In this document: positions 3,511-14,250 of the stretch, in pieces
Layout: each line of letters begins with the position of its first letter
How positions within the stretch are numbered: the first letter of the stretch is position 1
DNA from: a virus
Length of the DNA stretch: 27,631 bases
IMG/VR virus record: IMGVR_UViG_3300034523_000009
Location: 1 to 27,631 of that record
Reading direction: 5' to 3' (one strand)
Program-made: the position numbers and the translations under genes
The notes under the pieces: generated by a model
Seen by the model: only the letters and a program-made list of their open reading frames with translations
Database searches by the model: none
Told to the model about the DNA's origin: nothing

Positions 3511-3773
3511 GAGAGCAATTTATGCGTATCGCAATGGCGAGGCTACGCAGCACCTATCCGTTTAAACCCCAACGCCAAGCAGTAGCAGCTCGTATGTGGG
3601 TAACCTATCTTGAACGCTACGCAGCAAAGCAATGGGAGCGTGAGCAGATGCGCCAAGTACGTGCCTGTGCTATGCATGCAGCACAACAGGAATGGGAGTT
3701 AATGGAGGATGAACTCAATAAGCGTATGGACATCATCGGAACTAACGGCAACGAGGGAACGCATTATGAGTAG
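3507..3773 (+). CDS. Basic/aromatic hypothetical protein (88 aa)
   Basis: The 88-aa product is rich in R, Q, M and W, with a predicted long helix (AARMWVTYLERYAAKQWEREQ). An ATGA overlap joins it to the upstream gene, and it overlaps the glycosyltransferase start by 8 bp. No motif is recognised. Its codon use and overlaps look like its neighbours, which is the main support for its being real. Confidence 0.55.
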   Translation: MREQFMRIAMARLRSTYPFKPQRQAVAARMWVTYLERYAAKQWEREQMRQVRACAMHAAQQEWELMEDELNKRMDIIGTNGNEGTHYE

Positions 3774-4707
3774 GCCGTTTGTAGTGGCCTTTCACAAGGT
3801 AAACTCAGGGGTAGCATACCATCGTGTCTTTGCCCCTTTGATTTGCCACCAAGAGGCAGACGTGATGTTCGTTGAAAAGATAACGGACATTGAGCCTGAG
3901 GTATGGCCTAAGATTACTCACTTCTTCTCAAGCCGTGCATTCCCTGTTGAGCCGTTTGATGACTTCGTTAGGCTCTGCCGCAAGGAGGGTATCAAGCTAA
4001 TCATTGATAACGATGATTGGTGGGTGCTACCTCCTAACCATCCCCTAAACGGATTCTACGGAAGGCAGATGAAAGACCGCATTATTCGGTCTATGAAAGC
4101 AGCAGATGAGGTATGGGTAACCAACAAGCACCTCGCCTCAAAGGTAAAGAAGTACAATACCAACATCCGAGTCATCCCAAACGCCATCAGCGTACCCACT
4201 TGGCAGATAAACCGAGAGCCATCAGAGAAGGTTCGCTTCGGTTATATCGGAGGCAACCACCACCAAGCGGACATCCGAGATTCAACCATTGACCTATCGG
4301 GCTACGAATCGTATGTGGCGGAGGTAGATAACTACCCCGATATGATGCGAGCAGCATACAAGCTACCCACGATGCCCCCAACGCACTACCATCGCCTGTA
4401 CGAATACTTTGACGTTAGCCTTGTGCCGTTAACGACAAGCGAGTTTGCTAAGTGCAAATCACATCTAAAGATGCTTGAGGCAGGATTCAGCAAGTGCGCT
4501 CTGATTGTGAGCAACACGCACCCATACGAACCCTACATCACCAAAGACAACTGCATTGCAATCAACCACCCAAGCGAATGGGCAGGAGCAATCAAGAGGC
4601 TAAACGATAACCCCAACCAAGTCCAAGACCTAACCGAATCGCTATACGAGTACGTGCAGGATTTCACGATGGACAAAATAAACGAACTGCGATGCTTTAC
4701 ATTGTAA
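3766..4707 (+). CDS. GT-B type glycosyltransferase (GT4-like)
   Basis: The 313-aa product has a two-Rossmann-domain layout. Visible features are GVAYHRVFAPL (15-25) in the N-terminal domain, LIIDNDDWW (78-86), the interdomain IRVIPNAIS (134-142), a second Rossmann start FGYIGGNHH (158-166), and the C-terminal donor-binding helix FAKCKSHLKMLEAG (227-240), matching the K-S-x-K...E signature of GT4 enzymes. It probably transfers a sugar from a nucleotide donor; acceptor unknown (phage DNA, virion protein or host glycan). ATG 3766 is chosen since the N-terminal strand begins there. It is followed by a second glycosyltransferase with a 16-bp overlap. Confidence 0.75.
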   Translation: MSRPFVVAFHKVNSGVAYHRVFAPLICHQEADVMFVEKITDIEPEVWPKITHFFSSRAFPVEPFDDFVRLCRKEGIKLIIDNDDWWVLPPNHPLNGFYGRQMKDRIIRSMKAADEVWVTNKHLASKVKKYNTNIRVIPNAISVPTWQINREPSEKVRFGYIGGNHHQADIRDSTIDLSGYESYVAEVDNYPDMMRAAYKLPTMPPTHYHRLYEYFDVSLVPLTTSEFAKCKSHLKMLEAGFSKCALIVSNTHPYEPYITKDNCIAINHPSEWAGAIKRLNDNPNQVQDLTESLYEYVQDFTMDKINELRCFTL

Positions 4708-5219
4708 CTCCTTGCTCACGCCCTCAGAACCTAAAACGCATCAAGCAGTACATTCCTGAATGGGCTACGTGGGTGGTGATGATGGATGCCTCTACCGACT
4801 TCAAGGAAGCAACAGGCGCAAACGTAACCCACTATTCAAAGAAGACAGGAAATTGGGGAAATCCACTACGCAACGAGTTCCTTGACCTCTACCAAGACCA
4901 ATTCACGCAAGATGACTGGGTGTACTTTCTGGATGATGATAACATCCTGCACCCGAAGTTCAATGAGCAATGGTCAAACCTCCATAACCTTGACTCCTCA
5001 ATCGTAACGTGGGGACAAGAGGGAAGACTACGCCCTACCGACCAACCAACAATCGGAAACATAGACACCGCCTCCTATATGTTCAAACCATACCACTTGC
5101 CGAAGCTGCGCTTTGAGAATATCTACGAAGCCGATGGCCTATTTGCTTCTGCTGCCGCACGGCAAGGAACCCTCATCTGCGTGGATTCGTACCTTTGTTA
5201 CTACAACGCTCTGCGATGA
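4692..5219 (+). CDS. GT-A type glycosyltransferase with DDD motif
   Basis: The 175-aa product begins with the GT-A strand MLYIVTPCSRPQNLKRI and contains YFLDDDNILHP (78-88), whose DDD (81-83) fits the metal- and nucleotide-sugar-binding DxD site. GNPLRNEFLD (56-65) precedes it, as in GT2-like folds. It is short for GT2 but long enough for a catalytic core. No membrane segment is seen, so it is cytoplasmic. It overlaps both neighbours (16 bp and 4 bp) and forms a cassette with the preceding GT-B enzyme and the following methyltransferase. Substrate unknown. Confidence 0.75.
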   Translation: MLYIVTPCSRPQNLKRIKQYIPEWATWVVMMDASTDFKEATGANVTHYSKKTGNWGNPLRNEFLDLYQDQFTQDDWVYFLDDDNILHPKFNEQWSNLHNLDSSIVTWGQEGRLRPTDQPTIGNIDTASYMFKPYHLPKLRFENIYEADGLFASAAARQGTLICVDSYLCYYNALR

Positions 5220-5743
5220 AAACCTACAAAGATATTCAAGGGTGGTTCAACCACCAAGCAGCATACGACTTCCTGTTATCACAAGTCCCAGAAGGAGGCA
5301 CGTTCGTAGAACTCGGTGCGTGGCTCGGAAAGTCATCGGCCTACCTATGCGACAAAGCAACACACCAAAACATCACCATCATTGATTCGTGGAAAGGCTC
5401 ACCAAACGAACTTGAAACCGCCCACAAGCTCGCAATGGAAGTAGACATCTACGACTTGTTTGTTGAGAATATGGGAGAGCGCAAGTACAAGGCCATCAGA
5501 GCAACATCCAAAGCAGCATCCAAGAAATTCAAGAACGAATCCTTAGACGTAGTCTTTATAGACCTAACCCATACCTACGAGGCAGTAAAGGAGGATATTC
5601 AACTATGGCTACCCAAAGTAAAGAAGGGAGGCTACATAGCAGGAGATGACTACCACGAACATTGGCAAGGAGTAATCCAAGCCGTAGATGAATTGCTACC
5701 CCACGCCACGTTCATTGATGATTGTTGGCTCTACAAAAAATGA
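5216..5743 (+). CDS. Class I SAM-dependent methyltransferase (Methyltransf_24-like)
   Basis: The 175-aa product carries a SAM-binding motif I, FVELGAWLGKSSAYL (30-44), the acidic strand-2 end IIDSWKG (55-61), VVFIDLTHTYEAVKEDI (112-128) and GGYIAGDDYH (138-147). This is the pattern of Methyltransf_24 / FkbM-neighbour enzymes that methylate sugars or small molecules. It is coupled to the glycosyltransferase through an ATGA overlap, so it may methylate a glycan made by the two GTs (inference). It overlaps the HNH gene by 4 bp. Confidence 0.8.
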   Translation: MKTYKDIQGWFNHQAAYDFLLSQVPEGGTFVELGAWLGKSSAYLCDKATHQNITIIDSWKGSPNELETAHKLAMEVDIYDLFVENMGERKYKAIRATSKAASKKFKNESLDVVFIDLTHTYEAVKEDIQLWLPKVKKGGYIAGDDYHEHWQGVIQAVDELLPHATFIDDCWLYKK

Positions 5744-7497: not shown

Positions 7498-8211
7498 ATG
7501 GAACTGAAAGTAGTAGTACCCACCGACCTATCGGAAATCACCTTAGAGCAATACCAGAAGTTTGCTCGGCTTGAGGGTGATGAGGAGTTCCTTACCCATA
7601 AGATGCTTGAGGTGTTCTGCAACGTGCCTTTGAACAAGCTACCGAATGTCAAGTTCAAGAGCCTATCGGGTGTCGTGAATCGCCTGAATGGTATGTTTGC
7701 TACCAAGCCATCACTCAAGCAGGAGTTCACTATTGGTGGCCAAACATTTGGGTTTATCCCCAATCTTGAAGACATCACATTCGGTGAGTACGTTGACCTT
7801 GACAATTATATGGCCGACACGCAAGAGCTGCATAAGACAATGGCTATTTTGTACCGTCCCATCACGCAGCGAGCAGGCAAGCGATACGACATTGAGCAAT
7901 ACGAGTCGGCAGAGAAATATAGCGAGCTGATGAAGCAAGCGCCTATGGATGTTGTGTTAGGAGCAACGCTTTTTTTTTATCGTTTAGGAAGCGACTTGTT
8001 GCTCGCTACGATGAACTCTTTGGAGAAGCAAACAACGAGTATAGCGGAGAGGCTCAATTCGGAAGGAAGTGGGGATGGTACTCCTCGTTCTATCACCTTG
8101 CTAAAGGAGATGTCACAAAGTTTGAAGATGTGGGAAGACTGGGCGTTCATCAATGCCTCACTCTTCTCACGTTTGACAAAGAGCGCAACGACCTTGAACG
8201 AAGACAATTAG
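7498..8211 (+). CDS. Tail-assembly-chaperone-like protein, 0-frame product (237 aa)
   Basis: ATG 7498 follows the terminase by 22 nt. Residues 1-160 include IGGQTFGFIPNLEDITFGEY and MAILYRPITQR..YDIEQYE, a conserved type I recall from Bacteroidota phages upstream of the tape measure. After LFFYRLG the 0 frame continues through a Ser/Thr-rich tail (SGDGTPRSITLLKEM) to TAG 8209-8211. The T9 run at 7970-7978 lies at the junction, and an alternative -1 frame extends the protein differently. Position before tail genes suggests a role like lambda G/GT. Identity as chaperone is inferred. Confidence 0.7.
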   Translation: MELKVVVPTDLSEITLEQYQKFARLEGDEEFLTHKMLEVFCNVPLNKLPNVKFKSLSGVVNRLNGMFATKPSLKQEFTIGGQTFGFIPNLEDITFGEYVDLDNYMADTQELHKTMAILYRPITQRAGKRYDIEQYESAEKYSELMKQAPMDVVLGATLFFYRLGSDLLLATMNSLEKQTTSIAERLNSEGSGDGTPRSITLLKEMSQSLKMWEDWAFINASLFSRLTKSATTLNEDN

Positions 8212-8228
8212 AGAAACTAAAGAAATGA
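7498..8228 (+). CDS. Tail-assembly-chaperone-like protein, -1 frameshift product (243 aa)
   Basis: Residues 1-160 are shared with the 0-frame product. Slippage on T_TTT_TTT (7971-7977) would move ribosomes to the -1 frame, adding 83 residues from TTA 7977 to TGA 8226-8228. The new tail reads like a real protein: FGRKWGWYSSFYHLAKGD (188-205), VTKFEDV, then a charged C-terminal helix (FDKERNDLERRQLEKLKK). Its TGA overlaps the next start codon (ATG 8225) as ATGA, the junction used throughout this genome, whereas the 0-frame stop leaves a 13-nt gap. Alternatives are transcriptional slippage on T9 or an assembly error in the homopolymer. Confidence 0.6.
7970..7978 (+). promoter_or_regulatory. T9 slippery site for -1 frameshifting
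   Basis: Nine consecutive T follow codon boundary CTT-TTT-TTT-TAT (7969-7980). The heptamer T_TTT_TTT allows tandem -1 slippage with full re-pairing. No downstream pseudoknot was confirmed by eye. Confidence 0.55.
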
Positions 8229-8692
8229 GGCAGTTTTACGACATCACGACCAAGCTGAAGGATACGCTTCAAGCACATAGCCAAGTCAACGTAGTCACTA
8301 CGGGCGACATCTTTGACATTGACCTGAACAAGCAGACCATTTTCCCGCTGAGCCACATCATTGTGAACCAAGCAACATTTGAAGGCCAAATCGTACGGAT
8401 GAACGTAAGCCTCGTATGTATGGACTTGGTAGATGAAACGAAGGAAGACCCCCGTGACCAACCAGAACCGTTCTACGGAACAAGCAACGAGCAGGACATC
8501 CTAAACACGCAACTCGCAGTCATCAACGATGTAATCACGGAACTACGCAGAGGCACGTTGTATTCGGACTTGTACCAGCTTGACGGAACGGCTACGGCAA
8601 TTCCATTCAGCGAGCGCTACGAGAACCTGCTTGCTGGGTGGACTGCTACGTTTGATGTGCTGCTTGCTAACACCGAAATCAGCGTTTGCTAA
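8225..8692 (+). CDS. Tail/neck completion protein (probable)
   Basis: The 155-aa protein contains GDIFDIDLNKQTIFPLSHI (27-45), VSLVCMDLVDETKEDP and NEQDILNTQLAVINDVITEL. I recall this pattern as a conserved Bacteroidota phage structural protein between terminase and tail genes. Its size and mixed alpha/beta character fit a tail terminator or connector, but no signature proves it. It starts in the ATGA overlapping the stop of the frameshifted chaperone and ends directly before the next ATG (TAAATG). Confidence 0.6.
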   Translation: MRQFYDITTKLKDTLQAHSQVNVVTTGDIFDIDLNKQTIFPLSHIIVNQATFEGQIVRMNVSLVCMDLVDETKEDPRDQPEPFYGTSNEQDILNTQLAVINDVITELRRGTLYSDLYQLDGTATAIPFSERYENLLAGWTATFDVLLANTEISVC

Positions 8693-12503: not shown

Positions 12504-12637
12504 AGCCAAGTTATTTAGGTTATTTGATTGAACTCTTGCAGGTAGACGAGTGGCGCAAGCAGTCAGAGGCGATTGACATCGCCAAAGGCAAGTACGCTAT
12601 TCCTAAGACGTGGGATGAGTTCTTAAAGCGCAGGTAA
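12500..12637 (+). CDS. Small helical protein upstream of tape measure (45 aa)
   Basis: ATG 12500 overlaps the preceding stop (ATGA), and the stop TAA 12635-12637 overlaps the tape-measure start by one base (TAATG), so it is fully embedded in the operon. The 45-aa product reads LIELLQVDEWRKQSEAIDIA then IPKTWDEFLKRR. It is amphipathic and charged. The position next to the tape measure suggests a tail assembly role, but the family is not recognised. Confidence 0.6.
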   Translation: MKPSYLGYLIELLQVDEWRKQSEAIDIAKGKYAIPKTWDEFLKRR

Positions 12638-14250
12638 TGGTAGTAGAAACAGTTAAGATTGAAGGCAACGGAAGTGGGTTTGAGGAAACTATCAAAGACC
12701 TCAATACTGCCGTACAGGAACTCAATAAGAATCTTAAATCAATAGGGTCTACTGCCGAGAAGTCATTTGACAAGGCTGAGAAGTCTGCCGAGAACGTAGA
12801 GAAGCAGGTTAAGGAAACGGGCAAAAGCGTTACCGACCTAATCAAAAATATCACGGCTCTTGGAGTTGTGACTCGTGTTAGCGATGCTGCAAGCGAGGCC
12901 TTCACGGGCAACCAAAAGATAGTTGATGCCCTTAACACGGGAATCTTCACCGTTCAGATTGCGGTTAGCAACTTGATTGATTACTTCACGGGTGGTAAGG
13001 GCAGCTTGCGTGATGCTTTTAGAGGAGTAACGGAGCAAGCAAAGGAATTGGTGAAGCTGCAAAACGAATCTCGCCTTGCGGATGTTCAACGAATGGCCTC
13101 TCAGCTTGAATCTCAAAAACTCGCAGAGATTGAGCGCCAAAAGCGTGATGACGAACTAAAGAGCATTGATGAGCGCATTAAGGCTAACCAAGCATTAGAT
13201 AAAATCCTAAGCGACCAACTTGCTAAGGAAAGAGGATTGGTTGAAGTAAAGGTGGCTGCTGCTAATGCTGAATACGAGCGATTAAAGAACATTGAGAATC
13301 TTGTTGCATTAGAGCAAGCCAATGTTGAATTGATTGACATTGAAGAACGAATCATTGGTCAGCGGTCTGAGGCGCTTATGAACCAACGCAGCCTTGAGCG
13401 TGAGCGTTTAGAATTGCAGAAGCAAATAAATGAAGCTAAGGCAATAGAGGCTGAAACGGGAGTAAAGTTCAACAAACAACAACAACTTCTTGGTGTATTA
13501 GGTCTTGATGAGCAAATTAAGAATGAACGACAAATTGCCGAAGAAGAATATAAGAGATACGAGAGGTCGTACGAGATTCGTGTTGATTTCTTAAATGAGC
13601 AGATTAAGGCAGCTCAAGAAGCGGGTCAAACTGAGAATGCCCAATATCAACAACTTCTTGATGAGCGTTATCAGCTTGACCAAGAGTACTACGACAGGAC
13701 AAAGCAACTCGGTGAACAACGTAGGCAGCTTAATCTGCAATCAGTTAGCGATGCGGTGATGACCACGCAGCAGGCGATTAGTGCTATTTCAGCCTTCTAT
13801 GATGCTCGCTATGCCAACGATGAGAAGAACGCAGAGAAGGCGTTTAACATCCAAAAGAAACTATCTATCGCTCAAGCAGTAGTGCAGGGCGTAGAGAGCG
13901 TGGTAAACGCTTACGCAACGGCTCAGAAGTCACCATTGACCGCATTGTTCCCTACATACCCTGCGGTAGCAGCAGGCACGGCAGCAGCGTTCGCTGCAAG
14001 TCAAGTGGCACTAATCAATAGCCAACAATTCCAAGCAGCAAGCTCAGGGTCGGCTAACTACGACTCAGGAGCAGGCGTACCATCGCAACCTGCAAACTTT
14101 AACATCGTATCAAGCAGCGGTGGGAATATCTTGGTAGAAAGCATCGCCTCACAATTCCAAAAGCCCCTAAAGGCTTACGTGGTTAGTGGCGAGGTTATTT
14201 CAGGAACAGAGCTTGACCGCAGACGAGTAAGAACCGCAACATTCGGATAA
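12637..14250 (+). CDS. Tape measure protein
   Basis: The 537-aa protein is dominated by coiled coil: residues about 15-60 and about 130-390 are rich in K, E, Q and A, with heptad patterns (LERERLELQKQINEAKAIEA). A C-terminal Ala/Gly-rich hydrophobic segment, SIAQAVVQGVESVVNAYATA (about 411-430), then AVAAGTAAAFAASQVALI, is typical of tape measures of Bacteroidota phages. At about 0.15 nm per residue it would set a tail of roughly 80 nm (inference from the usual tape-measure ratio). It starts in a TAATG overlap and ends in a TAATG overlap with the protease. Confidence 0.8.
   Translation: MVVETVKIEGNGSGFEETIKDLNTAVQELNKNLKSIGSTAEKSFDKAEKSAENVEKQVKETGKSVTDLIKNITALGVVTRVSDAASEAFTGNQKIVDALNTGIFTVQIAVSNLIDYFTGGKGSLRDAFRGVTEQAKELVKLQNESRLADVQRMASQLESQKLAEIERQKRDDELKSIDERIKANQALDKILSDQLAKERGLVEVKVAAANAEYERLKNIENLVALEQANVELIDIEERIIGQRSEALMNQRSLERERLELQKQINEAKAIEAETGVKFNKQQQLLGVLGLDEQIKNERQIAEEEYKRYERSYEIRVDFLNEQIKAAQEAGQTENAQYQQLLDERYQLDQEYYDRTKQLGEQRRQLNLQSVSDAVMTTQQAISAISAFYDARYANDEKNAEKAFNIQKKLSIAQAVVQGVESVVNAYATAQKSPLTALFPTYPAVAAGTAAAFAASQVALINSQQFQAASSGSANYDSGAGVPSQPANFNIVSSSGGNILVESIASQFQKPLKAYVVSGEVISGTELDRRRVRTATFG

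Follow-up and report, generated by a model that had tools for sequence, protein, structure and literature searches.

A run of at least nine T in a phage gene next to the large terminase and the two selected C-terminal tails read behind it

The window analysed here, a whole stretch of 27,631 nucleotides, contains a gene with a run of nine T (7970-7978, plus strand, as are all features of this gene and the next) behind which two reading frames stay open. This raises the question whether both frames are used and, if so, how the second one is entered. In the 0 frame, where the codons at the run are CTT TTT TTT TAT with the first at 7969, no stop occurs until TAG at 8209-8211, and the product (7498-8211) has 237 aa, made up of a common N-terminal domain and an alternative C-terminal tail. 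A slip of -1 after 7977 joins the same N domain to a -1 tail of 83 aa (7977-8228, the FGRKWGWYSS... domain), giving 243 aa up to the stop TGA at 8226-8228. The two tails overlap in 7978-8208, and the end of the -1 tail past the 0-frame stop (8212-8228) is coded singly. The ATG of the downstream gene (8225-8692) overlaps the -1 stop as ATGA, an arrangement also found in those close homologues that are complete. The initial annotation had proposed a programmed -1 frameshift on the heptamer T_TTT_TTT, which lies at 7971-7977, and its figures for the run, both open frames, the stops and the ATGA overlap were exact when rechecked in the sequence.

The frame change is conserved. In 80 close IMG/VR loci T9 was found at the same place without exception, and the -1 tail was the better conserved of the two tails. 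Wider searches yielded 338 loci in all, 332 of which could be classified because both the N and the C domain were recognised. In all 332 the frame of the C domain is -1 with respect to that of the N domain, with the T run in between. The runs consist of nine T in 285 loci, ten in 44, eleven in one and eight in two, so that at least nine T are present in 330, and they start in all three codon phases. The only T8 runs (L281 and L303) both belong to a divergent clade with short 0-frame tails and offer natural test cases for a requirement of nine T. The same T9 and -1 tail occur in an isolate, Nonlabens phage P12024L, which is about 30% identical and whose 0 frame ends 25 codons past the run. The gene family belongs to a large group of uncultured phages whose hosts are probably Bacteroidota. 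The proposed -1 shift, which the homologues show to be conserved at the T run, and the reading of the -1 tail as a genuine protein are thus well supported.

Homopolymers are liable to errors and to length mutation, and the frame break could accordingly stem from faulty assembly, from decay of the gene or from a phase-variable DNA tract. However, a run length that would bring the two domains into one frame was found in none of the 332 classified loci, the isolate genomes P12024S and P12024L agree, and purifying selection acts on both frames, as detailed below. Sequencing or assembly error and a pseudogene were therefore rejected, and an explanation of this kind as a whole is regarded as extremely improbable. 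In one locus (L120, 2501-3235) the frame is also disrupted upstream of the T run, near codon 53, probably through an assembly error.

Selection on the two tails was assessed in 172 representatives, with expected stop counts conditioned on the -1 protein and on local codon usage. Within their first 50 codons the 0-frame tails together contained 108 stops against 422.6 expected, and 128 of the 172 genes had no stop at all in this stretch against 13.6 expected. As the sequences are related, these numbers do not represent separate events; the internal controls, however, carry the same relatedness. These control frames were neutral, with 2930 stops against 2903 expected for the N region read in the corresponding frame and 1580 against 1539 for the third frame. 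For 65 independent pairs that span 93-99% identity, divergence at 4-fold sites amounted to 0.148 for the N region and 0.030 for the dual-coded zone, but to 0.166 once the 0-frame stop had been passed; deeper bins agree in direction. The -1 frame thus shows a five-fold lower synonymous rate where the two tails overlap, and in homologues the counterpart of 8212-8228, behind the 0-frame stop of the gene concerned, again evolves as fast as the N region. How far the constraint extends depends on where the 0 frame ends, as seen in groups whose stops lie at up to 26, at 47-65 and at 70-88 codons. Per opportunity, neutral substitutions occurred at a rate of 0.071, changes silent in -1 and replacing in 0 at 0.029 (0.40 relative to neutral) and the converse class at 0.013 (0.19 relative to neutral). 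Changes that create a 0-frame stop while being silent in -1 were seen once, against about 33 expected.

It might still be argued that the -1 product alone matters and that composition or codon use happens to leave the 0 frame open, since the window has other alternative-frame ORFs of 60-137 aa and the length of the 0-frame tail varies. This is contradicted by the stop avoidance, for which the controls are neutral, and by the extent of the synonymous constraint, which in each gene reaches as far as the 0-frame stop and no further; such an accident is therefore hardly credible. RNA structure as the source of the synonymous constraint in the T-run lineages was likewise rejected, as no structure signal was detected there and the constraint tracks the 0-frame stop. 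Judged from these substitution patterns, dual coding with two alternative C-termini is real; both tails are kept by purifying selection, and both proteins would therefore be functional. The dual-coding 3' half proposed in the initial annotation is upheld by stop avoidance, synonymous constraint and the two-frame substitution classes alike, and the codon-substitution analysis of both frames in homologues that it had suggested found purifying selection in 0 and in -1. The nearly equal lengths of the two products (237 and 243 aa), also pointed out there, hold for the window's own clade but not for the family, in which the 0-frame tail measures 16-88 codons with a median of 56 among the 172 representatives.

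Two ways of entering the -1 frame have to be weighed, slippage of the RNA polymerase on the T run and slippage of the ribosome on the heptamer. Transcriptional slippage is efficient at nine A or T, with a hybrid of 9-10 bp (PMC5009743), nine bases act as a threshold in many bacteria, at which slippage is selected against (PMC1088944), and the insertions are mostly of a single base (PMC5574713). The slip site has two features of such a system: the run is uninterrupted and at least nine long in 330 of the 332 loci, and apart from the two T8 exceptions this length is kept in every codon phase. With independent flanking T counts 18.9 runs shorter than nine would be expected, whereas two were seen, since a T lost on one flank is gained on the other; about 27 changes of phase or flank on the tree likewise include only two that end below nine T. 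Elsewhere in these loci T9 and T10 runs are scarce, 24 in 0.69 Mb compared to 169 at the slip site. The third frame stays open for a median of 2 codons before it ends.

In the ribosomal alternative, which is the main rival, the same two proteins would arise when ribosomes slip by -1 on T_TTT_TTT, as in lambda G/GT. The heptamer is a legal in-frame X_XXY_YYZ site and is present in every run of at least nine T. For such a mechanism, however, seven T would suffice, yet at least nine are kept in all phases with compensating flanks, and no other slippery heptamer is found in the T-run lineages. These lineages also have neither of the usual stimulators, a downstream structure or an upstream Shine-Dalgarno-like element: RNA structure is absent both up- and downstream of the run (mean z about 0), and Shine-Dalgarno-like motifs show no excess over the 172 representatives. 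The AGGAG that precedes the run in the window was dismissed as a stimulator for this last reason. Rfam gave no match in the window. Some ribosomal frameshift sites work without a stimulator, and these results therefore make the ribosomal reading less probable. Because of the rule of nine or more T and the lack of RNA structure, polymerase slippage is favoured, and the shift in the T-run lineages is probably of this type. The lambda-like ribosomal -1 shift put forward in the initial annotation is thus confirmed in its -1 relation, which is conserved, but not in its ribosomal nature, which was not established.

In the proposed mechanism an exact mRNA copy of the run (U9) would be read in the 0 frame and yield the 237-aa form. 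When the RNA polymerase slips back on T9 and adds one U, ordinary translation of the U10 mRNA would enter the -1 frame and yield the 243-aa form. About 160 N-terminal residues, which form the common domain, would be identical in the two forms, with the difference confined to the C-termini; the 237-aa form is presumably made in larger amounts. A pair of proteins with two tails, generated by polymerase slippage in the T-run lineages, is the explanation that accounts best for the locus as a whole, and we consider it likely.

A group of 16 loci (L421-L436) has lost the T run. At the same place these loci carry an invariant A_AAT_TTT, and both frames are still open. Nine of them could be placed on the tree, where they form a single clade that branches within the T-run lineages, next to L178 and L139. 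A stem (ACCGTTTAG/CTAAACGGT) starts 4-5 nt past A_AAT_TTT, encloses about 90 nt and is followed by a second hairpin, as can be seen in L421 at 1969-2099. The perfect 9-bp stem is present in every locus of this group that was tested, and a stem of equal length occurs in only one of the 172 T-run representatives; the mean z of the 100-nt window is -2.85. Covariation in the stem is thin, with one compensatory pair (in L432), because the stretch itself is dual-coding. With a heptamer and a downstream structure these loci have both elements of a canonical -1 ribosomal frameshift signal, which A_AAT_TTT and the stem resemble. Ribosomes may accordingly be able to make the shift in this gene, which is why we still give the ribosomal reading of the T-run lineages serious weight, although it appears rather unlikely. 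Conversely, the absence of such a stem from the T-run lineages, while the clade without the run has one, is the best indirect argument that they do not depend on ribosomes.

More remote relatives encode the protein in a single frame. Uninterrupted proteins of about 259-301 aa are found in Duneviridae (Flavobacterium phages FPSV-F7 and laban6-1, Cellulophaga phage Ingeline), in Polaribacter phage Leef and in a Microcystis phage. The -1 fusion is collinear with the single-ORF Duneviridae proteins across the slip site (hhalign probability 97.7%, E 1.6e-12, 219 columns), whereas the 0-frame product aligns to single-ORF relatives only up to about residue 173. This difference makes it probable that the -1 form is the older and canonical one, to which the 0-frame tail would have been added by overprinting. 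Homologues with one uninterrupted frame and no T run had been named beforehand as the case that would speak against a programmed shift. Single-frame genes of this kind exist only in remote relatives, the Duneviridae, and the nested clade L421-L436, which also has no T run, exchanged it for another slippery site and kept both frames; the proposed shift is undermined by neither. In Flavobacterium phage 6H, gp10 (L339, 10352-10927) is annotated with 191 aa and the record appears frame-broken near the end of the gene; phages nearly identical to 6H (FPSV-F7; L340, 3501-4382) have an intact ORF of 293 aa. For the family, we lean slightly towards a history in which the same pair of proteins is made in two ways, mostly by polymerase slippage on nine or more T and, where this was replaced once, by a ribosomal heptamer with a long-range stem, with single-frame distant relatives and an overprinted 0-frame tail kept over very wide divergence.

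For the 0-frame product AlphaFold2 gave a mean pLDDT of 81, with about 87-97 in the N domain, a long helix (residues 150-186) that passes through the slip site and a tail predicted with lower confidence as a helix pair. The -1 tail, modelled separately and not as part of the whole 243-aa fusion, is predicted as an all-helical domain (pLDDT 86). Searches of Pfam, PHROGs, NCBIfam and PDB sequences returned no match informative on function, and a PDB fold search returned unrelated helical hairpins only. In BFVD uncharacterised phage proteins were matched, among them some single ORFs of 258-267 aa that were matched by both the head and the -1-tail models. The gene lies directly 3' of the large terminase, and four genes separate it from a putative tape measure (12637-14250). 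A role in tail or neck assembly, as a pair similar to lambda G/GT with a fixed ratio of isoforms, is suggested by this analogy, but we put it forward with some hesitation. That the gene is a tail assembly chaperone, as suggested in the initial annotation, could not be established, because Pfam, PHROGs and the PDB yielded nothing with chaperone function. Just upstream of the terminase region two glycosyltransferase-like genes and one methyltransferase-like gene were noted from their translations (3709-5743), and a 137-aa alternative-frame ORF (1020-1433) lies within a DNA cytosine methyltransferase-like gene.

Like lambda G/GT, the locus is a gene of the morphogenesis module upstream of the (here putative) tape measure, in which a -1 relation between a common head and a second product leads to a different C-terminus. 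In lambda, however, the shift lengthens the protein, whereas here the 0 frame runs for 16-88 codons over the -1 tail with both under selection, a pure run of nine or more T takes the place of the mixed heptamer, and no link in sequence or fold to known chaperones was found. Bacterial transcriptional slippage on A9 or T9, as in Shigella mxiE and spa13 and Thermus dnaX, also uses a homopolymer of nine, adds a base and needs no RNA structure. The present case, a candidate for such slippage, differs in that it concerns a structural-module gene of a dsDNA phage whose unslipped tail is overprinted and selected. Comparable to dnaX, with ribosomal slippage in E. coli and transcriptional slippage in Thermus, one gene family apparently uses two mechanisms according to lineage, but here the exchange occurred within one phage gene family that in addition has single-frame relatives in the Duneviridae. 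Potyvirus P3N-PIPO likewise combines a common head with an alternative C-terminus from an overlapping -1 frame that is reached through polymerase slippage, but differs by its viral RNA-dependent polymerase, its A-rich site and its RNA virus context. No description of a T-run frameshift in this gene was found in the open-access literature, to which the search was confined.

In P12024L the gene has been split by annotation at the 0-frame stop into two hypothetical proteins, gp40 and gp41 (L082, 5001-5695), which shows that gene callers pick one of the two products, and PHROG 32199 (175 long) matches only the truncated form of this gene that ends at the 0-frame stop. In this family, selection has been quantified on both frames of an extended dual-coded region of a dsDNA phage. 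Its recoding site is available in hundreds of natural versions, which contain either a homopolymer or a heptamer plus stem within the same gene, and transcriptional versus ribosomal slippage thereby becomes directly testable.
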